Positions 21,263 through 40,356 of a stretch of DNA of 40,481 nucleotides are shown piece after piece. The position numbers and the translations under genes are program-made. Position 1 is the stretch's first letter; the number at the start of each line of letters is the position of its first letter. A model generated the notes under the pieces. The model was given only the letters and a program-made list of their open reading frames with translations, was not told the origin of the DNA and ran no database searches. Source of the stretch: a virus; IMG/VR virus record IMGVR_UViG_3300010401_000024, positions 1 through 40,481 of that record; one strand, given 5' to 3'.

Positions 21263-21280
21263 TTGTCCGTTTCAAACCTG

Positions 21281-29955: not shown

Positions 29956-29985
29956 TTGTCCGTTAATGTAATTTGTAAATAACAT

Positions 29986-30099
29986 TTCGAGAATTAAAGG
30001 TAAAAATTTGTCCTTATTAACTTAGCAGTTTTTTTATTTGCTTGACCAAGATCATTAAAAGGCAAATTATAGAAAATATATTTGCATAGTCCGCCGTCG
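29986..30099 (-). promoter_or_regulatory. Intergenic region with operator-like motif
   Basis: This 114-base gap has no gene. At 29999-30014 it has GGTAAAAATTTGTCCT, matching the near-palindrome adjacent to the two copies of the promoter repeat. No promoter with the phage consensus spacing is present on the minus strand; a degraded -7 (TATAATTTG) occurs near 30065. It probably carries a weak or regulated promoter for the 29955 gene. Confidence 0.4.
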
Positions 30100-32016: not shown

Positions 32017-32041
32017 TTTGTTTTGTCCGTTTATTTTTTAA

Positions 32042-32452
32042 TTAGTATTTTTCTATGAATGTATAAACTTTATAACCGCACTCGGAAAGAAACTTTGCAA
32101 GGTCTTGAGCGTAATCAACGCAACTTATTTTTGGAGTATTTGTTGGGACGCCTTGACCAAACAATTGCAAGGTTATAGTATTTTGTTTTTTATTGCCGAG
32201 TATGACTTTATAAGCAATGTAATCTAAATAACCGATAAAGGATATTGTAATTTTAAAATCGTCTCCGTCGTTTGCAAACAAATCAACGCTTTTCGGAAAA
32301 TTATCTTGTAACCATATTATAAATTTTGAGCTTGAGTTTTGGTCATTGTATTGAGTAATTGCGCTGTCTAAAACTCCGCAAAAGTAAAATCCCTCGACCT
32401 CAAAAACGTTTCTTGTTATTTGATTAGCTTTTAAATTTGATAAGTCTAACAT
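32042..32452 (-). CDS. Unknown protein driven by the second 103-bp promoter repeat
   Basis: The start at 32450-32452 (136 aa) follows AGGACAAAAATCAA; an upstream ATG would lie in the promoter repeat. The protein is soluble, mixed alpha/beta, with FEVEGFYFCGVLDSAITQYN and FGQGVPTNTPKISCVDYAQD. No domain recognised. It shares promoter, operator and leader with the gene at 1266-1715. Confidence 0.75.
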   Translation of the reverse strand: MLDLSNLKANQITRNVFEVEGFYFCGVLDSAITQYNDQNSSSKFIIWLQDNFPKSVDLFANDGDDFKITISFIGYLDYIAYKVILGNKKQNTITLQLFGQGVPTNTPKISCVDYAQDLAKFLSECGYKVYTFIEKY

Positions 32453-32458
32453 TTGATT

Positions 32459-32561
32459 TTTGTCCTTTTTGTTTTGTCCGTTTTTAAATACAATACAAAT
32501 ATATTGTATGGTCAAGACCAAGTCAAGGGTAAAAATTTGTCCCTATTGACCGGCGCGAAAA
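32459..32561. repeat. 103-bp direct repeat carrying a promoter, copy B
   Basis: Identical to 1720-1822. The last 19 bases of the LuxR-type gene lie inside this copy, so the duplication used a segment that spans the end of a coding region, and that gene's C-terminus may have been remodelled. It includes the promoter at 32496-32526 and the near-palindrome at 32527-32543. Confidence 0.93.
32496..32526 (-). promoter_or_regulatory. Promoter for the 32042-32452 gene
   Basis: Minus strand: TTGAC (32522-32526), 18-base spacer, TATATTTG (32496-32503). Immediately upstream lies the near-palindrome GGGACAAATTTTTACCC. The transcript leader carries CGGACAAAAC and AGGACAAA before the ATG. Confidence 0.75.
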
Positions 32562-32797
32562 CCGTCCTTTTCCGAGCAATCCGCAAGGGTCAAGACCTCG
32601 TTTTTGAGAGCAAAGATTAAAAGACCAACCATATTTTTAACTCCGGCGCGTTCATACATTTTTTGTATTGTGGCGTCGAGAGTATTTATATTTTTGGTCA
32701 AGGCCTTACAAATTTGTTTCCGGCCTTTGCTTTTTGCAATCTCTTTTAATATTTCAATTTGGTTATCTGTAAAGATTTTTTCCTTTGGTCGGTTCAT
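32543..32797 (-). CDS. Small LuxR/GerE-type helix-turn-helix regulator
   Basis: The protein has 84 residues and consists of little more than the DNA-binding domain: FTDNQIEILKEIAKSKGRKQ, ICKALTKNINTLDATIQKM then YERAGVKNMVGLL, which aligns with the LuxR C-terminal HTH consensus. It has no sensor domain, like phage- and spore-regulator GerE types. It is transcribed from its own promoter through a structured leader. The adjacent operator-like palindrome suggests it may control the repeat promoters; untested. Confidence 0.75.
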   Translation of the reverse strand: MNRPKEKIFTDNQIEILKEIAKSKGRKQICKALTKNINTLDATIQKMYERAGVKNMVGLLIFALKNEVLTLADCSEKDGFRAGQ

Positions 32798-32817
32798 AAG
32801 GCCTCCCGTGAATAAGT

Positions 32818-32898
32818 GGAGCGGAGGCGGACAAAACCGAGAGAGTTAAACCTCTTGGGAGAGGTTACGGACACTTTCGGAAAAGATACCTCCGCTCC
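32818..32898 (-). ncRNA. Structured leader RNA of the LuxR-type gene
   Basis: A 10-bp perfect closing stem (GGAGCGGAGG with CCTCCGCTCC; 32889-32898 and 32818-32827) encloses two hairpins: a 7-bp stem with 4-base loop at 32849-32866 and a CTTT-TCCG-AAAG hairpin at 32874-32885. Next to the closing stem lies the single-stranded GTTTTGTCCG (reverse complement of 32828-32837), exactly antisense to the CGGACAAAAC found before phage starts. It lies within ~10-20 bases downstream of the predicted transcription start and ends ~20 bases before the start codon, where GGGAGG is the ribosome binding site. It could be a cis regulator, an sRNA, or both. Confidence 0.6.
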
Positions 32899-32914
32899 TT
32901 TAAAACGGACAAAA

Positions 32915-32945
32915 CAAACATATTGCTTTATAGTCATATTATCAA
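32915..32945 (-). promoter_or_regulatory. Promoter for the LuxR-type gene and its leader RNA
   Basis: Minus strand: TTGAT (32941-32945), 18-base spacer, TATGTTTG (32915-32922). The -33 box lies just downstream of the DUF6166 gene end. One copy of GTTTTGTCCG (32906-32915) lies at the predicted transcription start. Confidence 0.7.
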
Positions 32946-32948
32946 TAG

Positions 32949-33254
32949 TTATTTTTCGGTTTCTGCTTTTAATTTTTCAAACCATTTATTAACGTCGAGG
33001 TCGATAATAAAATCGTCTTGAGGTAAATCCTTTATAAAATCGACCTTAAATTTCATGTATATTTCTCGAGCGACGTCGTCTCCATAAAGCTCTTGGCAAA
33101 GAGCTAAAGCAAGTTGACCCGCTCCGCTCCCGAGATAACCCCAATTAAAACCGTCGGGACTATGCTTGCATAATAAAAAACTTTTGTCCGGCGTCAAGGC
33201 TTTGCCGTCCAAATAGATTTCTTTTGTTTTCCAAAATCCTTGTAAGTGTATCAA
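32949..33254 (-). CDS. DUF6166-like protein
   Basis: The protein has 101 residues with CKHSPDGFNWGYLGSGAGQL followed by ALALCQELYG, the characteristic core (SPDGF-x-WGY-x-GSG-x-x-QLALAL) of DUF6166, a family widespread in phages and bacteria. No activity is known. It ends directly before the LuxR-leader promoter and overlaps the winged-helix gene at its start. Confidence 0.75.
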   Translation of the reverse strand: MIHLQGFWKTKEIYLDGKALTPDKSFLLCKHSPDGFNWGYLGSGAGQLALALCQELYGDDVAREIYMKFKVDFIKDLPQDDFIIDLDVNKWFEKLKAETEK

Positions 33255-34676: not shown

Positions 34677-35323
34677 TTGTCCTCCAACGTTAAAGGAGCT
34701 CCGGACTCGTCAACAAATACGGTCTTGTTTAAGTCCGGCTCGTGTTTGAAAATTTCTTTATACCATACGCGGAATATTGCAACGACGTTTTGTTTTAGCA
34801 GTAGACGCCGGAGGCCGTTCCTTTGCGCTTTAGAGAGAGAGATTATTTTCCCGAAACGGTCTCCAATTATTTTTTCGTGTGTACCCATAGCCAAGATTTG
34901 AAAGTTTCTTTTCTTACAATGGACGGCAACGACCGAGCAATACAAGTCCTCCGTATCTTGATTTATAAAACTATGGACTATTAAATTTTTTTGGAGCGAC
35001 GCAATTCTAATCGTCCCCTCGTATGAAATGCCAAAGACCATTTTAATTCCTGTTTCGTTCGCGGGGTCGTCGTCGTCCGCCGGTACATAATAAAAAGGTT
35101 GGCTCGAGAAAGGGTCTCCGGCCATAATTTGAGCAATGTCTAAATCGTCAAAGATTTGGAATTTGTTTCTCGGGGTCTTGATAAAATCTTTCGCCGGAGG
35201 TTTATTCTTTCCGTTCTTTTTTTGTTGCGCTCTTTTAACGACCGTTTTTTTATTTAGGTTCGGCGTCTTTAAGTTCTTGAGCGGATTTTTTTTCTCGTTC
35301 TTTTTTTTGCTTTGCTTTGCCAT
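34673..35323 (-). CDS. Unknown protein with long basic N-terminus
   Basis: The protein has 216 residues. The first ~50 are Lys/Asn-rich and disordered (KKKNEKKNPLKNLKTPNLNK), then a mixed domain with acidic ADDDDPANETG and RNGLRRLLLKQNVVAIFRVW. The frame's first 74 bases overlap the end of the upstream gene in another frame, so a later start is possible, although the codon use is consistent throughout. Probably a nucleic-acid binder; no family recognised. Confidence 0.6.
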   Translation of the reverse strand: MAKQSKKKNEKKNPLKNLKTPNLNKKTVVKRAQQKKNGKNKPPAKDFIKTPRNKFQIFDDLDIAQIMAGDPFSSQPFYYVPADDDDPANETGIKMVFGISYEGTIRIASLQKNLIVHSFINQDTEDLYCSVVAVHCKKRNFQILAMGTHEKIIGDRFGKIISLSKAQRNGLRRLLLKQNVVAIFRVWYKEIFKHEPDLNKTVFVDESGAPLTLEDK

Positions 35324-35501
35324 AAATGGATTGTCCGTTAAAAGTTATATGAAAGTTTGAATTGTTTACGAGCTCCCGAGCTTGAGAATTGTCTTGATAG
35401 GCCTCGAGTCCGGAGGAGCTTAAATCTAATATGTTGGTTTTAAAATCCGCGTAACCTATCGGAACGCTTTTCTTATCTATGAAAATGCAGTATTGCGCCA
35501 T
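35250..35501 (-). CDS. Small unknown protein
   Basis: The protein has 83 residues, with CIFIDKKSVPIGYADFKTNI then SSSGLEAYQDNSQARELVNN and a charged Lys/Glu tail. The start is preceded by CGGACAAAGGACAAAAA. Its tail overlaps the next gene's N-terminus in another frame for 74 bases. No family recognised. Confidence 0.6.
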   Translation of the reverse strand: MAQYCIFIDKKSVPIGYADFKTNILDLSSSGLEAYQDNSQARELVNNSNFHITFNGQSIYGKAKQKKEREKKSAQELKDAEPK

Positions 35502-35525
35502 TGAGTTTTTGTCCTTTGTCCGTTA

Positions 35526-35917: not shown

Positions 35918-36738
35918 TGCTTGACCCTCCCTCCAAATTGTTTTTCGCATTTGTCCCAAAAACCGCACCACGTCCGAGAGCAAAGATAACTCGACCGGTT
36001 AGGACGCGGAGAAAGTTTTTCCTCCTTGATTAAATTCATTCTTTGTTTTGCTTGAGATACAAGGAGCGTCCAATATTTTTTATCCGTTGGCTTTGGCGGG
36101 TCAAGGTCGACCTCAATTATTACGGGGTCTTTCTTTTTGACCGCGTATATTATGCGCGTTGTTTTCGGAATAACCTGTTTAGAGTTGTTTATACAAATAT
36201 CGTAAGTTGTTAATTGAAATTTGTCGTCCTCGTTGCAAGGAAAATATTTCCCGTCGAGGTTTTTCATTGGAGAGCGTGTCGTTGTTTTGTTATCAATAAT
36301 TATTCCGTCCTTTGTTATTAAGTCCGGCCGGAGCTCAACGTCCCAATCGACCCCCTCAAATGAAACAGTAAATTCCGGTTGTACCAAGCGCGGGAGTATC
36401 TTTGGAGAGGCCTTTTGTTGGTATAGCTTAACCAATTGTATACCTGTTTCTCGGAGGTCGGCTTTTTTTTCTTTTCCAAAATCTGTATGAGTTGCGACCT
36501 TTTTATATTGCTCGGTAAAAACGTCGACAACAATATCCGGCTTTAGGTCGAGGCCGGTCTTAACCTTTTGCTCAAAGTTGTGATTTAGAGCCTCGTCGAA
36601 AGATATACCTAAAGCGCGCGCGCCGTTTGGAATTACTCTAATATTTAAAATCTTATTAAAGTACCATTTGGCCTCACAATTATTGAATGTCTTTACTTGG
36701 CTTGCGGAGATATGAGTTTTAACTTGTCCGTTTTTCAT
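35914..36738 (-). CDS. Cas4/RecB-like PD-(D/E)XK nuclease
   Basis: The protein has 274 residues. The active site is ELRPDLITKDG then IIDNKT (E135, D139, D149, K151), followed by QLTTYDI (175-181), the RecB-family motif. An Fe-S cluster is suggested by C21 plus C253, C258 and C264 in YLCSRTWCGFWDKC, the Cas4/AddB arrangement. It probably processes DNA ends for recombination with the DnaQ-like exonuclease. Promoter TTGAC-18-TATATTTG lies only 4 bases before its ATG, so the mRNA is likely leaderless or nearly so. A 55-bp piece of the gene is duplicated near 1150-1213. Confidence 0.85.
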   Translation of the reverse strand: MKNGQVKTHISASQVKTFNNCEAKWYFNKILNIRVIPNGARALGISFDEALNHNFEQKVKTGLDLKPDIVVDVFTEQYKKVATHTDFGKEKKADLRETGIQLVKLYQQKASPKILPRLVQPEFTVSFEGVDWDVELRPDLITKDGIIIDNKTTTRSPMKNLDGKYFPCNEDDKFQLTTYDICINNSKQVIPKTTRIIYAVKKKDPVIIEVDLDPPKPTDKKYWTLLVSQAKQRMNLIKEEKLSPRPNRSSYLCSRTWCGFWDKCEKQFGGRVKQ

Positions 36739-36742
36739 ATTG

Positions 36743-36773
36743 CAAATATAGTCCGTTAATTTTAGTTTGTCAA
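36743..36773 (-). promoter_or_regulatory. Promoter for the nuclease operon
   Basis: Minus strand: TTGAC (36769-36773), 18-base spacer, TATATTTG (36743-36750), then CAAT and the ATG. The box overlaps the stop codon of the split gene, so this promoter secures nuclease expression although the transposon interrupts the upstream gene. Confidence 0.75.
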
Positions 36774-37045
36774 CTGTTTACTTTTTCGACAACAATTTTA
36801 TCGTGTGAATAAAACGAGTCGCGCTGTATTGAGCAAGAGCCGTCTTTCTTGCATTTGCGAAATCTAAAACTTATCTCTCCGGTATAGAGATCAAGGTCGA
36901 CGTCGTAAATATAGGCCGGCCGGAGAAATTTCTTTTTGTTTTTTACGACCTCGTAAATATTTACTTTGTCTCCATAGTTTAAAGCGTCCGGTTGGCTTAA
37001 GTATATTTTTACAAAACGTTTTTCAAGCCTCTCCCTTAAATTCTC
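36770..37045 (-). pseudogene. C-terminal part of the phage gene split by the transposon
   Basis: From the transposon's left end the frame reads ENLRERLEKRFVKIYLSQPD onward for 91 codons to TGA 36770-36772. The fragment joins exactly in frame with the 35-codon N-terminal piece at 40233-40337, giving a 126-residue protein if the element is removed. The C-terminal half has RFRKCKKDGSCS and is basic. The family is not recognised. The fragment alone has no start codon near the junction. Confidence 0.8.
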
Positions 37046-37064
37046 GGTAGTGTCTTAATTTGAA
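37046..37064 (+). repeat. Left terminal inverted repeat
   Basis: GGTAGTGTCTTAATTTGAA, exactly inverted at 40214-40232. Identity ends at base 20, so the repeat is 19 bp. The next ~250 bases to the first gene hold the AT-rich leader and the promoter at 37250-37280 and no gene that I can find. Confidence 0.93.
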
Positions 37065-37249
37065 AGTGGCGAAAATAGCGTTTTTTTAATAACGCCTATT
37101 GACTCTTAGCAATCTTATACGTATTGTGATAAGAGAATACTCCAAAAATTTATACCCTTTTAATGTAATAAAACACTTAAAATCGAACAATTTCGCAATA
37201 TATTCCTCGTTGTTATCCTCTAAGCCTCGTTTTCCCCCCTCTAAGTTAT

Positions 37250-37280
37250 TTGACTTTCGTCTGTAAATGTATTAAATTTG
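37250..37280 (+). promoter_or_regulatory. Promoter of the winged-helix gene
   Basis: TTGAC (37250-37254), 18-base spacer, TAAATTTG (37273-37280). The same spacing and -7 form as in the phage, showing both use the same host sigma factor. GAGGATTAAAA precedes the ATG 37 bases downstream. Confidence 0.7.
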
Positions 37281-37316
37281 TAATAGCAAATAAATAATTA
37301 ATTACGAGGATTAAAA

Positions 37317-37814
37317 ATGTTGACCGACAAACAAATCCAAGCAAGGGAGAAACTTGAAAGCCTCCTCAAAGAAGAAAAAGCTAAGTATGAGGCACTATAC
37401 GAGGCTGAAACACAGTGGATAAGAGATTTACTTGAAAATTTACCCAAAAATGGCATAAACGCCAGCGTTAGCTCTGCGGACTCAAACCTTTCCAAAAAAC
37501 AAAAACTTAAAAAGGACGAAAAAAAGGATACTTTTATGACAAAGGTAGCCCAAATTTTGCAGGAGGCTAACGAACCTCTTACTGTTACCGAAATGATTCC
37601 AAAAATGAACAAAATTTCAGCAAAACAGTATGATTATGCCAAGTTTTCGGGCACGTTATCTGCTCAATATAAGTCTAAACGTAGCCCTATTAATCAGGAA
37701 AAAATTTCCGATTTCCCGATTAGTTATAGGTATTTGTATGCTTTAAAAGATTGGTATGATGAAGCAGGAAAACTTAAAGATGAGTTTTATTTAAAAATTT
37801 TAAAAAGAAGATAA
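37317..37814 (+). CDS. Transposon winged-helix protein
   Basis: The protein has 165 residues. The first ~60 form a charged coiled coil (AREKLESLLKEEKAKYEALY), then comes a winged-helix domain at ~75-125: MTKVAQILQEANEPLTVTEM then IPKMNKISAKQYDYAKFSGT, similar to HARE/wHTH modules in which a helix with 'LTVTEM' precedes the recognition helix. The C-terminus is basic. It could regulate the element, for instance at the shared palindromes, or bind transposon ends; this is inference. Shine-Dalgarno GAGG precedes the start. Confidence 0.7.
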   Translation: MLTDKQIQAREKLESLLKEEKAKYEALYEAETQWIRDLLENLPKNGINASVSSADSNLSKKQKLKKDEKKDTFMTKVAQILQEANEPLTVTEMIPKMNKISAKQYDYAKFSGTLSAQYKSKRSPINQEKISDFPISYRYLYALKDWYDEAGKLKDEFYLKILKRR

Positions 37815-37881
37815 AAAATAGGCGACCAAGTTTTATAAGTCGCCTAAATTCATCGTATATACAAAAATGTTCCTTTATTGT

Positions 37882-37970
37882 GGTGGCATGGCTGAACTGG
37901 TGAAAGCACCCGACTTATAATCGGGCATCCGTTGACCGACGGTTTATAGGTTCAAATCCTATTGCCACCG
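37882..37970 (+). tRNA. Class II tRNA with UAU anticodon, Ser-like body
   Basis: A complete cloverleaf: acceptor GGTGGCA/TGCCACC (7 bp), U8, D-arm GCT/AGC with GG in the loop, anticodon stem CCCGA/TCGGG with loop CTTATAA (anticodon TAT at 37916-37918), long variable arm with CCGT/ACGG stem, T-arm ATAGG/CCTAT with TTCAAAT, discriminator G at 37970. CCA is not encoded. The long arm and G73 are serine-type features; leucine and tyrosine tRNAs have A73. The anticodon reads AUA, an isoleucine codon. It may charge serine at AUA, or be a non-decoding RNA. Confidence 0.85.
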
Positions 37971-37974
37971 CTAC

Positions 37975-38045
37975 GCAGAGTAAAGAAGATTTCCAGTCAC
38001 GCCTGAGAAGCACTCGACTGGGTGGTTCAGTTGCCACACTCTGCA
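37975..38045 (+). ncRNA. tRNA-like three-helix RNA
   Basis: Five bases after the tRNA, GCAGAGT (37975-37981) pairs with ACTCTGC (38038-38044), enclosing CCAGTC/GACTGG (37993-37998, 38016-38021) and GTGG/CCAC (38022-38025, 38034-38037). The last two helices abut directly. The size (71 nt), 7-bp closing stem with an unpaired A after it, and arm order resemble a tRNA lacking the D-arm. It has no known riboswitch signature. The gap 37815-38342 holds no gene except these RNAs, the promoter and the leader. Confidence 0.5.
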
Positions 38046-38169
38046 CTTATATAAAAGAACTACAGCAAAGATAATAGATATTGACGCAATTGTCAAGGGT
38101 TTTTGGTGTATTTCACTAATAAAACAGTAGTTTATGTTGCAGTTTTAAGGGTTTATTTTTTCAAAAAAA

Positions 38170-38184
38170 TATCATACAATGATA
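38170..38184. promoter_or_regulatory. Palindromic operator upstream of the transposase promoter
   Basis: TATCATACAATGATA is an inverted repeat with 6-bp arms. It is followed by CT and, 22 bases after its end, by TATATTTG. The same arrangement occurs before the Panacea gene (39215-39229). It occupies the -33 region, where no good TTGAC is present, so it either hosts an activator or a repressor that blocks polymerase. Confidence 0.65.
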
Positions 38185-38206
38185 CTCATAACCAAAAATA
38201 GTTATC

Positions 38207-38214
38207 TATATTTG
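38207..38214 (+). promoter_or_regulatory. Transposase -7 promoter element
   Basis: TATATTTG matches TAnnTTTG exactly. The -33 position, 18 bases upstream, reads ACTCA and does not match, consistent with a regulated promoter under control of the adjacent palindrome. Transcription would begin near 38221, just before the structured leader. Confidence 0.55.
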
Positions 38215-38228
38215 TATATAAATAAAAC

Positions 38229-38322
38229 GGGCTTTCATGGTGTTGACGCACCAATCAGCCCTAAACTCAAATGCCTGCGTTGACAGACAAACGAATCTAA
38301 ACAAAGATAATTCGTTGCAGGC
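38229..38322 (+). ncRNA. Structured 5' leader of the transposase mRNA
   Basis: Two hairpins: GGGCT/AGCCC (38229-38233, 38257-38261) with inner GGTG/CACC (38239-38242, 38249-38252), and GCCTGC/GCAGGC (38273-38278, 38317-38322) with inner ACGAAT/ATTCGT (38291-38296, 38310-38315). They fill the space between promoter and AAAGGAA ribosome binding site. It may limit transposase translation, as in IS10 or IS1 leaders that avoid readthrough expression, or sense a ligand. Confidence 0.6.
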
Positions 38323-38342
38323 TCAAAAGAAAGGAACTTGCA

Positions 38343-39194
38343 ATGAACAAATTATCAAAAGAGAAACAAATTACAGTATTATCCGCACTTGTAGAGGGAA
38401 ATTCAATTAGAAGCATTGAAAGAATGACAGGTATTAACAGAAATACCATTATGACCTTGCTCAAATCAGCCGGACAAAAAGCACAAGAGATTTTAGACAG
38501 CCAATTAGTAAATATTAAATCTAACTTAATTCAGGTTGACGAAATCTGGACTTTTGTTGGCAAAAAACAAAAACAGGTTACATTAGAAGAAAGATACGAG
38601 CAAAACAATACAGAGCTTGGCGACCAGTACGTATTTGTGGCTATTGACGCTGAAACAAAATTAGTTACAAATTATTTGGTAGGTAAAAGGGACGCTAAAA
38701 ATACTTTATCATTCTTACAGGATTTAAATGCAAGGGTCTCAACTGAATTTCAGCTTTCAAGCGATAGTTTTGCACCTTATAAACACGCTGTAAGAAGAAC
38801 ATTTGGCAGGGATATTGCATATGCACAAATTCATAAACAGTTTGGTGAAGAAGTCAGAGAAGAAAAAAGATATAGCCCTGCAAGAATAACGGGAATAAAC
38901 ATAATCCCAATATCGGGTGAGCCTAAAATGGAACATATCTCTACTTCTTATGTAGAAAGACAAAATTTAACCATGAGAATGAGTATGAGACGCTTTACAA
39001 GGTTAACCAATGCTTTCAGCAAGAAGTTAGATAATCTTAAACACGCCGTTGCATTACATTTCTTTCATTACAATTACATGAGGATTCATAAGACTTTAAG
39101 GGCTACACCTTGTATGGTTGCAGGTGTTACAAAAACTATTTGGAATTGGGATATGTTTTTAAAATATGGTGAAAATTACAAAAATGTCGCATAA
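38343..39194 (+). CDS. IS1-family transposase
   Basis: The protein has 283 residues in a single frame; classical IS1 requires a frameshift. A helix-turn-helix lies at ~8-45 (SIRSIERMTGINRNTIMTLL). The DDE core has QVDEIWTFVG (D66), a second Asp near LSSDSF (D141) and SYVERQNLTMRMSMRRFTRL (E205), the IS1 signature. The C-terminus has FFHYNYMRIHKTL. It cuts and joins the 19-bp ends of the element. AAAGGAA precedes the ATG. Nothing suggests it is broken. Confidence 0.92.
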   Translation: MNKLSKEKQITVLSALVEGNSIRSIERMTGINRNTIMTLLKSAGQKAQEILDSQLVNIKSNLIQVDEIWTFVGKKQKQVTLEERYEQNNTELGDQYVFVAIDAETKLVTNYLVGKRDAKNTLSFLQDLNARVSTEFQLSSDSFAPYKHAVRRTFGRDIAYAQIHKQFGEEVREEKRYSPARITGINIIPISGEPKMEHISTSYVERQNLTMRMSMRRFTRLTNAFSKKLDNLKHAVALHFFHYNYMRIHKTLRATPCMVAGVTKTIWNWDMFLKYGENYKNVA

Positions 39195-39214
39195 AATCAG
39201 TTACTCGGAAAAAA

Positions 39215-39229
39215 TATCATATCGTGATA
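39215..39229. promoter_or_regulatory. Palindromic operator upstream of the Panacea gene
   Basis: TATCATATCGTGATA, arms TATCA/TGATA, with the same flanking AAAAAATATCAT and GATACT as at 38170. It ends 21 bases before TATATTTG (39251-39258). Confidence 0.65.
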
Positions 39230-39250
39230 CTGTTTTGAGGGATTTTTTGG

Positions 39251-39258
39251 TATATTTG
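39251..39258 (+). promoter_or_regulatory. Panacea operon -7 promoter element
   Basis: TATATTTG, exact TAnnTTTG, six bases before the ATG at 39265, so the message has almost no leader. As at the transposase promoter no TTGAC lies 18 bases upstream; the operator occupies that place. Confidence 0.55.
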
Positions 39259-39264
39259 TATTGT

Positions 39265-39774
39265 ATGAAAGCCAAAATTCTTAAAAATAGCCATAATCTT
39301 ATAGATTCATCCGAATTAACCAACTATATCCTTGCTAAAGGTGGTTCTATGAATCATTTAAAATTACAAAAAGTATTGTATTATGTAGAAGCATGGCATT
39401 TAGTTTTTTTTAATAAATCTATTGTTGAGGATGAATTTCAAGCGTGGGTTCATGGACCAGTGTCAAAAAAACTTTGGAATGAGGTTAAAAATCTTTCTGT
39501 ATTATATAGTGAACTTGAAGTTAGTAAACCAGAAAAAATAATAAAAGATGTTGAGGAAAAATTAAACCAAGACCAAATTGATTTAATTAATGATGTTATA
39601 AAGAAATACGGCAAGCAAAGCGGATACAATTTAGAATGCTTGACTCATAATGAATTACCTTGGATAGAAGCAAGAGAAGGTTTATCCCCCAATGCCCCAA
39701 GTAATAATATAATTTCAAAAAAAACTATGAAAAAATATTATTCAGAACTACTTCATAGATATACAAAAAAATGA
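39265..39774 (+). CDS. panA: Panacea-domain (DUF4065) antitoxin
   Basis: I use the ATG at 39265-39267 (169 aa), after the -7 box; an upstream ATG at 39166 would overlap the transposase. The domain reads LTNYILAKGGSMNHLKLQKV then LYYVEAWHLVFFNKSIVEDE and FQAWVHGPVSKKLW, the classic Panacea/SocA/GepA pattern (LKLQKLLYY, AW-x-x-GPV). Panacea proteins are hyperpromiscuous antitoxins that pair with many toxin folds. It is followed at an ATGA overlap by the presumptive toxin. The promoter is presumably autoregulated. Confidence 0.88.
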   Translation: MKAKILKNSHNLIDSSELTNYILAKGGSMNHLKLQKVLYYVEAWHLVFFNKSIVEDEFQAWVHGPVSKKLWNEVKNLSVLYSELEVSKPEKIIKDVEEKLNQDQIDLINDVIKKYGKQSGYNLECLTHNELPWIEAREGLSPNAPSNNIISKKTMKKYYSELLHRYTKK

Positions 39775-40196
39775 CCAAGATACCCTCCCAAGCTACAAAA
39801 AAGAAAAAAAGCCTGTTAGAAAACCTACCCGAACCAACAGATAAATACAAAAAGAAATATATTTTGTTTAGTTATTTGGATTTTGATGTAAAGCAAAGTG
39901 AATCATTTGAAGATTGGCAGAAGTTAGAATTATTAGCCGAAAAAACAAACAAGTTTCATCATTATAGTAAACTACGTCTTGATGAAGCCTTTAGCGATAA
40001 ATTTAAAATATATAAGGGATTTCCTGAGAAATGCGGATATAAATTTCCTGAAACCCTATCAAAAGACGCAAAATGGTGTTCAATGCATATAAAAGGGAAA
40101 GAATGTGTTATTGGACACATAGTTGAAAATATATTCTATATAGTATTTCTTGACAAAGACCACAAGTTTTATCCTACCGAAAAAAAGAATACATAA
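39771..40196 (+). CDS. Presumptive toxin partner of the Panacea protein
   Basis: The protein has 141 residues and its ATG overlaps the antitoxin stop. The N-terminus is basic (TKIPSQATKKKKSLLENLPE). The core reads FSYLDFDVKQSESFEDWQKL; the end has AKWCSMHIKGKECVIGHIVE then NIFYIVFLDKDHKFYP, with a closing D-x-x-H that resembles a small toxin family found beside Panacea genes. Such partners include translation or membrane inhibitors; I cannot assign the target. The assignment as toxin rests on the operon with PanA. Confidence 0.65.
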   Translation: MTKIPSQATKKKKSLLENLPEPTDKYKKKYILFSYLDFDVKQSESFEDWQKLELLAEKTNKFHHYSKLRLDEAFSDKFKIYKGFPEKCGYKFPETLSKDAKWCSMHIKGKECVIGHIVENIFYIVFLDKDHKFYPTEKKNT

Positions 40197-40213
40197 ATAT
40201 TCATCACAATAAA

Positions 40214-40232
40214 TTCAAATTAAGACACTACC
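40214..40232 (-). repeat. Right terminal inverted repeat
   Basis: TTCAAATTAAGACACTACC, the exact reverse complement of 37046-37064. It begins 17 bases after the toxin stop codon, so the cargo reaches to the very end of the element. Confidence 0.93.
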
Positions 40233-40337
40233 AAAAATTGCAAAGCTATTTATTCTTGTATCGTTAAAACGTTGGACGGCCTTTGTTGCTAATTCAGCAA
40301 TAACCGAAAGTTTTTCATTTTTATATTTTTCTTTCAT
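40233..40337 (-). pseudogene. N-terminal part of the split phage gene
   Basis: ATG 40335-40337, preceded by CGGACAAATAAA, opens 35 codons (EKYKNEKLSVIAELATKAVQ and onward) that end exactly at the transposon. In the present arrangement translation stops six codons into the element. The frame continues at 37045 without gap or duplication. Confidence 0.8.
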
Positions 40338-40356
40338 TTTATTTGTCCGTTATATT

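Follow-up and report, generated by a model that had tools for sequence, protein, structure and literature searches.

A phage leader RNA complementary to a motif at translation starts: a candidate antisense regulator

Introduction

Upstream of a small helix-turn-helix (HTH) gene, the phage genome described here holds a leader region that is predicted to fold tightly and that carries the complement of a motif located at the starts of about ten phage genes. The question raised by this locus is whether a single leader RNA could control many genes in trans, as had been proposed from the letters alone (the sequence-only reading), or whether motif, fold and complement have other explanations, such as a sense RNA element, a DNA operator, a decoy RNA from the opposite strand or an ordinary structured leader.

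Results

The window, i.e. the whole 40,481-base stretch that was analysed, corresponds to the complete virus record. Since the record opens and closes with the same 123 bases, the phage genome is probably circularly closed. The GC content is 38%, and the accepted phage genes are on the minus strand throughout. The capsid protein matches Pfam GP7, and for the terminase a search of viral contigs yielded only distant relatives (28–29%) with GC contents of 55–66%. Promoters of the form TTG-N18-22-TAnnTTTG occur 17 times versus a mean of 4.5 and a maximum of 10 in 100 random sequences, and in 10 of the 17 the spacing is exactly 20. The combination of TTG and TAnnTTTG is the Bacteroidota promoter type according to excerpts of two papers (PMC9723704, PMC6847099). 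Therefore, the host probably belongs to this phylum. An inserted element at 37039–40239, bounded by 26-nt inverted ends (92% complementary), carries genes for an IS1/DDE-type transposase and a Panacea-domain protein as well as a tRNA, and it appears to interrupt the phage ORF that starts at 40337. Its transposase shares 62% identity with one in a Bacteroidota genome. The 90-nt tRNA (37882–37971, plus strand) is assigned to Ile (anticodon TAT) by ARAGORN; judged by eye, its variable arm is long, which is unusual for a tRNA-Ile.

The motif CGGACAAA occurs 17 times when both strands are counted, versus 2.6 expected, and none of 100 shuffled sequences contained as many. Eight of its 12 copies on the minus strand lie at starts, and the remaining four (35626, 33190, 7560 and 3404) do not. 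The sequence-only reading had placed it before the genes at 1213, 21262, 29955, 35501 and 40337, and we found it at all five. Exact copies of CGGACAAAAC had been listed before 1715, 32016 and 32452. All three are present, but a 103-nt segment comprising promoter and 5' UTR (32459–32561, minus strand) is identical to 1720–1822; since 1715 and 32452 share this duplication, only two of the exact targets are independent. A sharper form of the motif is AACGGACAA, with 11 copies on the coding strand, ten of which fall within −30 to +15 of a start. It adds the genes at 35323 and 36738 to the earlier target list, giving about ten targets.

All of these ten copies are on the minus strand. They are located before the genes starting at 1213 (1221–1229), 1715 (1735–1743, within the duplication), 32016 (32023–32031), 35323 (35331–35339) and 35501 (35516–35524). 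The gene at 32452, which follows the leader and is read in its direction, has its copy in the 5' UTR (32474–32482). In the structural region, the sole copy at a start is the one just before 21262 (21263–21271). Another (29956–29964) is at ATG 29955 of an ORF that has an earlier ATG at 29985, one (40343–40351) precedes the ORF starting at 40337 that is cut by the insertion, and one (36724–36732) occupies codons 3–5 of a PD-(D/E)XK nuclease gene starting at 36738.

Several further features were observed around these genes. At 36738–36773 (minus strand) there is a canonical promoter, and since its predicted start coincides with the ATG of the nuclease gene, the message from 36738 may be leaderless. 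The gene at 1213 and the nuclease gene have a 58-nt stretch in common (1129–1186 and 36270–36327, 90% identical), which, judging by this identity, is a partial gene duplication. The near-palindrome GGGACAAATTTTTACCC lies upstream of the gene at 1715 (1788–1804) and of that at 32452 (32527–32543), in both cases on the minus strand, with a two-mismatch copy at 29998–30014 (minus strand) before 29955/29985; it is a candidate repressor operator. At 1256–1213 (minus strand), a hairpin GGAGCGGAgaaaTCCGCTCC is followed by TTAAACGGACAAA, an arrangement that resembles the plus-strand sequence at the distal end of the leader.

For 44 hand-curated starts, of which 29955 was chosen partly owing to the motif and would otherwise have been left out, windows from −30 to +15 cover 4.9% of the sequence and contain 10 copies of AACGGACAA versus 0.54 expected. 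With mechanically called, ATG-first ORFs, 10 of the 11 copies lie at starts for a minimum length of 40 aa and 8 of the 11 for 50 as well as for 60 aa, and at each of these lengths AACGGACAA ranks first of 755 9-mers for start association. Plain chance is rejected by the shuffles, the start-window count and this ranking. Every one of the ten start-associated copies has the sense orientation. Measured from the start codon, the first G of GGA is located at −27, −25, −20, −13, −13, −12, −11, −6, −6 and +9, whereas the ordinary ribosome-site motif AAAGGACAA is confined to −11 to −13 in six of six cases. Because of this spread, AACGGACAA is not merely a Shine-Dalgarno variant; it has the ribosome-site distance at four of the ten genes (1213, 32016, 35323 and 40337) and another distance at six. 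The two motifs have GGACAAA in common, and both are present at 1715, 32452 and 35501. Pairing of the motif with 16S rRNA was likewise rejected, as TTTGTCCG, TTTTGTCC and TGTCCGTT are absent from the 16S genes of three Bacteroidota genomes, which carry a related transposase and may not include the phage's host. The only tried string that is present there is TTGTCCG, once in each of the three genomes, and a fourth genome gave no 16S match. The distribution of motif genes along the genome is uneven: they account for 9 of 18 genes in 29.6–40.4 kb plus 0–1.8 kb versus 1 of 26 elsewhere, i.e. in the structural region with the capsid, portal and terminase genes (Fisher p 0.0005; 0.0012 without the duplicate).

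The leader itself is preceded by a predicted promoter, TTG-N20-TATGTTTG, at 32915–32945 on the minus strand, which has a TAnnTTTG-type −7 box (32922–32915) and the upstream TTG expected for Bacteroidota. In the excerpts of PMC9723704 and PMC6847099, the −7 box lies at −12 to −5 from the transcription start; therefore, the leader is predicted to begin at 32910. The G at −9 departs from the refined consensus TAHHTTTG, and the leader is alone in this respect among the eight N20 promoters on the minus strand. Such a G is nearly absent in F. johnsoniae promoters, as far as the same excerpts go (PMC9723704, PMC6847099).

The complement of AACGGACAA, TTGTCCGTT, is found just once on the coding strand, namely at the 5' end of the leader (0.29 expected under an order-3 model). 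The predicted 5' end of the RNA, GUCCGUUUUAAA (32899–32910, minus strand), has an unpaired probability of 1.00 at all 12 positions in the predicted fold of the isolated leader. It is followed by an 81-nt hairpin body (32818–32898, minus strand) consisting of a 10-bp P1, an internal loop, P2 and a 7-bp P3 with a CCCA loop. The sequence-only reading had described a 10-bp stem and two hairpins. The stem is borne out, with a perfect closing helix of 32898–32889 with 32827–32818, but in the predicted fold the leader is one arm with internal loops and not two side-by-side hairpins, the second helix P2 spanning 10 positions with two mismatches and the terminal hairpin 7 bp. GTCCG occurs three times in the leader, as had been noted for GUCCG.

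A second stretch of interest lies within this arm. The sequence GTTTTGTCCG is present twice on the minus strand, at 32915–32906 and 32837–32828, versus 0.07 expected (order-3 model). In the predicted fold, UUUUGUCC in the internal loop (32829–32836, minus strand) is unpaired with probabilities of 0.64–1.00, and the end bases of this inner copy are mostly paired. The main seed had been placed here, next to the stem and unpaired; this is correct for UUUUGUCC but not for the end bases, and the fully unpaired GUCCGUUUUAAA at the 5' end is the more likely seed, with UUUUGUCC as a possible second one. No terminator was found directly after the leader hairpin. An Rfam scan of the window at gathering score yielded only a tRNA and no match for the leader, and a search of 32700–33000 at E up to 10 returned only weak, unrelated matches, so that a known RNA family was rejected.

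The predicted fold is strong. A 121-nt stretch on the minus strand has a predicted energy of −43.6 kcal/mol (z −4.04), and none of 200 shuffles folded as well. The plus strand of the same stretch folds even better (−47.2, z −5.41) and, at the position of one minus-strand mismatch, retains a G-U pair. CsrB-type RNAs act as decoys for CsrA, and by analogy the functional RNA could be a plus-strand transcript whose hairpin captures a factor that binds AACGGACAA in mRNAs. Besides the better fold, the plus strand offers three CGGACA within 98 nt (32828, 32868 and 32906) and one exact AACGGACAA at 32904. However, no N20 promoter lies upstream, the nearest exact −7 box having a spacing of 18 (32668) and a relaxed one being located at 32759, and the accepted phage genes are all on the minus strand. 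We consider such a decoy very improbable.

On the minus strand, the leader is followed by the HTH gene (32543–32797), which encodes an 84-aa protein with weak similarity to LuxR-type (GerE) helix-turn-helix proteins (Pfam GerE, E 0.006, 16.6 bits, below the 23.5 cut-off). The single-sequence structure model of this protein was too weak to use (pLDDT 69.7), and no PDB match was obtained for it at E 0.001. Its Shine-Dalgarno sequence is GGGAGG (32802–32807, minus strand). When longer mRNAs are folded, CCGU of the 5' seed pairs with ACGG beside GGGAGG, and in the fold that includes the whole HTH ORF, GGGAGG is largely paired. Together with the strong fold, this would suit an ordinary structured leader, be it an attenuator or riboswitch-like or thermosensor-like, that controls the HTH gene alone by hiding its Shine-Dalgarno sequence, with the other complementarity having no role. 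Yet Rfam offers no match at gathering score and nothing but weak, unrelated families when E is relaxed to 10, and the match to the phage's most start-enriched motif would be left unexplained; we consider this the least probable of the readings.

The pairing of leader and starts was examined with contiguous helices for the 44 starts, using a leader that begins at 32911 and so includes one base upstream of its predicted start. At −12 kcal/mol or better, the leader reaches 29 of the 44. Shuffled leaders reach 15.3 on average and 27 at most (0 of 200 reach 29), and sense windows 9.0 on average and 25 at most (0 of 250). For plus-strand windows, the average is 13.7 and the maximum 30; 2 of 250 reach 29, and 11 of 250 attain the leader's mean energy. 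The longest pairing, 13 nt with 21262, includes the extra base 32911 and one G-U pair. Gapped duplexes did not discriminate between the leader and controls: at −14 kcal/mol, 21 of 200 shuffled leaders and 3 of 197 sense windows reached its count, and at −12 kcal/mol 64 of 200 and 13 of 197 did. One characteristic of trans-acting base-pairing small RNAs, an accessible seed that is complementary to several messages near their starts, is predicted for the leader.

On the DNA level, the complementarity extends beyond the predicted RNA. It amounts to 16 of 16 nt with 32032–32017 and to 19 of 20 with 32487–32468 and 1748–1729, in each case with 8 nt in the promoter. Such an extension could point to an inverted duplication or to an element that operates on the DNA level. 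Part of it may be a coincidence of the −7 box with A-rich start regions; alternatively, a start region may once have been copied here in inverted form, or readthrough may embed the leader in a longer transcript.

These data bear on the possibility that AACGGACAA is a sense RNA element that is recognised at starts by the ribosome or by a protein, be it of the phage or of its host. It would then be a translational operator like those of T4 RegA or an extended ribosome site, in which case the leader complement would be a by-product, e.g. of an inverted duplication of a 5' UTR. The uniform sense orientation and start proximity of all ten copies, the GGACAAA shared with AAAGGACAA and the 16–20-nt DNA similarity of the leader to inverted start regions, which exceeds the predicted RNA, are all compatible with it. 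There is also a precedent in RegA, a phage protein that acts on about 30 translation starts according to excerpts of PMC3014915. However, a by-product does not explain why there are two complementary stretches in the leader, one at the 5' end and one in the internal loop, and Pfam and PHROGs scans of 18 distinct window proteins, a minority of the genes, revealed no RegA-like gene. We regard a sense element as unlikely, albeit worth serious consideration.

Complementarity that runs into promoter DNA, which should stay untranscribed, would also be understandable if the motif were a DNA operator to which a phage repressor binds, regardless of orientation, near transcription starts, with the leader's own promoter among its sites. 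At the leader and at four genes (36738, 35501, 32452 and 1715), a canonical or near-canonical promoter has the motif within about 20 nt of its predicted start, two AACGGAC copies (36757 and 36732) flank the −7 box at 36738, the orientation is reversed at the leader, and a possible HTH protein is encoded next door. Against this, five of the ten genes (1213, 21262, 29955, 32016 and 40337) lack a strong promoter that would set the motif near a transcription start, and the promoter at 35323 is only a 7/9 match. Moreover, the position relative to predicted transcription starts varies whereas all ten copies adjoin a start codon in sense orientation, and the motif is not palindromic. We consider an operator improbable.

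RNA pairing is ranked first because ten of ten sites are start-proximal in sense orientation with a strong promoter nearby at only four of them, and because a protein that reads the sense motif would need no complement. Relatives were sought for seed/target covariation, and none were found in the viral contigs or bacterial genomes searched. The HTH protein, capsid, portal and exonuclease had no relatives in viral contigs, and the capsid was absent from 391 genomes. In bacterial genomes, the HTH query gave 15 loci; the two that were inspected encode longer regulators of 218 and 256 aa, and for the other 13 the comparison comprised motif counts only. An 18-mer of motif plus start recovered 10 viral stretches, eight of them in one shared context and none with motif enrichment, and the 24 stretches recovered by the promoter-plus-seed pattern all lacked a TTG at −33 as well as motif enrichment. 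As relatives for covariation are lacking, our confidence in RNA pairing stays below one half.

Discussion

Within that limit, we tentatively propose that the leader of the HTH gene is, or yields, an antisense regulatory RNA that pairs with translation-start regions. The RNA would start near 32910 with the single-stranded 12-nt seed GUCCGUUUUAAA, and the 81-nt hairpin behind it would confer stability and present UUUUGUCC as a second anti-start stretch in its internal loop. After a presumed release as a separate RNA, the seed would pair in the cell over 7–12 nt with AACGGAC-type sites that lie −27 to +9 from the start codons of about ten phage genes, almost all of them non-structural. Such pairing would block 30S binding. 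In the full-length mRNA, the same seed could bind beside the Shine-Dalgarno sequence of the HTH gene itself. The proposal that one RNA controls many genes in trans is partly supported, namely by the start-tied motif, the unique complement in the leader, the unpaired seed and the contiguous-pairing test.

A more far-reaching form of this model, which we consider doubtful, is a master translational switch in which one leader-derived RNA with two seeds would address a shared 9-mer at about ten mostly non-structural genes, including the predicted leaderless nuclease, and its mRNA form would also shut off its own HTH gene, like a c4-like RNA grown phage-wide.

By analogy, the best reading is that the leader would work like the c4 RNA of phage P1, its closest functional analogue, but with many targets. 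As in P1/P7 c4 (RF01695), a short, hairpin-rich phage RNA is located upstream of phage genes on the same transcript. P1 c4 is annotated with 77 nt, and its target sites a2/b2 lie in the leader of the downstream icd-ant message. According to excerpts of PMC5320573 and PMC12197685, c4 is processed at GGW, and its loops act on the ribosome site through short complementary stretches. The leader likewise contains short, predicted-unpaired stretches complementary to the ribosome-binding region, its hairpin has 81 nt, and the gene at 32452 follows in the same direction. Of the features expected for C4 processing from a longer transcript by RNase P, the leader shows a GGA at the 5' end of its stem. 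However, when the C4 covariance model (45-bit threshold) was run over the window, nothing matched even at E up to 10, with a P1 control at 68.8 bits, and the folds differ, C4 having a long stem that encloses two hairpins and the leader a single coaxial arm P1-P2-P3. For these two reasons we do not assign the leader to the Rfam C4 family. Furthermore, the annotated targets of c4 are in one message, whereas the sites of the leader, about ten, are spread across the genome.

Other phage-encoded small RNAs that act on messages are VpdS of vibriophage VP882, which targets phage and host mRNAs, and PreS of lambda; in excerpts of PMC12197685 both are described as dependent on Hfq. The RNA proposed here differs further in that it would be an mRNA leader and not a free-standing RNA gene. 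Bacteroidota are not known to have Hfq. With T4 RegA, the proposed system would share the principle of one regulator for many phage messages (about 30 for RegA) at or just before the AUG, but RegA is a protein and its sites are without clear sequence conservation in excerpts of PMC3014915, whereas in this phage one fixed 9-mer recurs at the sites and an RNA is proposed as the regulator. Among listings of the phage small-RNA literature, no antisense leader like this was recognised in a Bacteroidota phage.

Should the RNA model prove wrong, the AACGGACAA tag would still stand out as a clear regulatory signature of the phage's non-structural genes. RNAs of the c4 type act on one message; a leader matched to a standardised tag at about ten starts would, if true, represent RNA-only control of a gene class, and this probably in a phylum with little-studied phage regulation.
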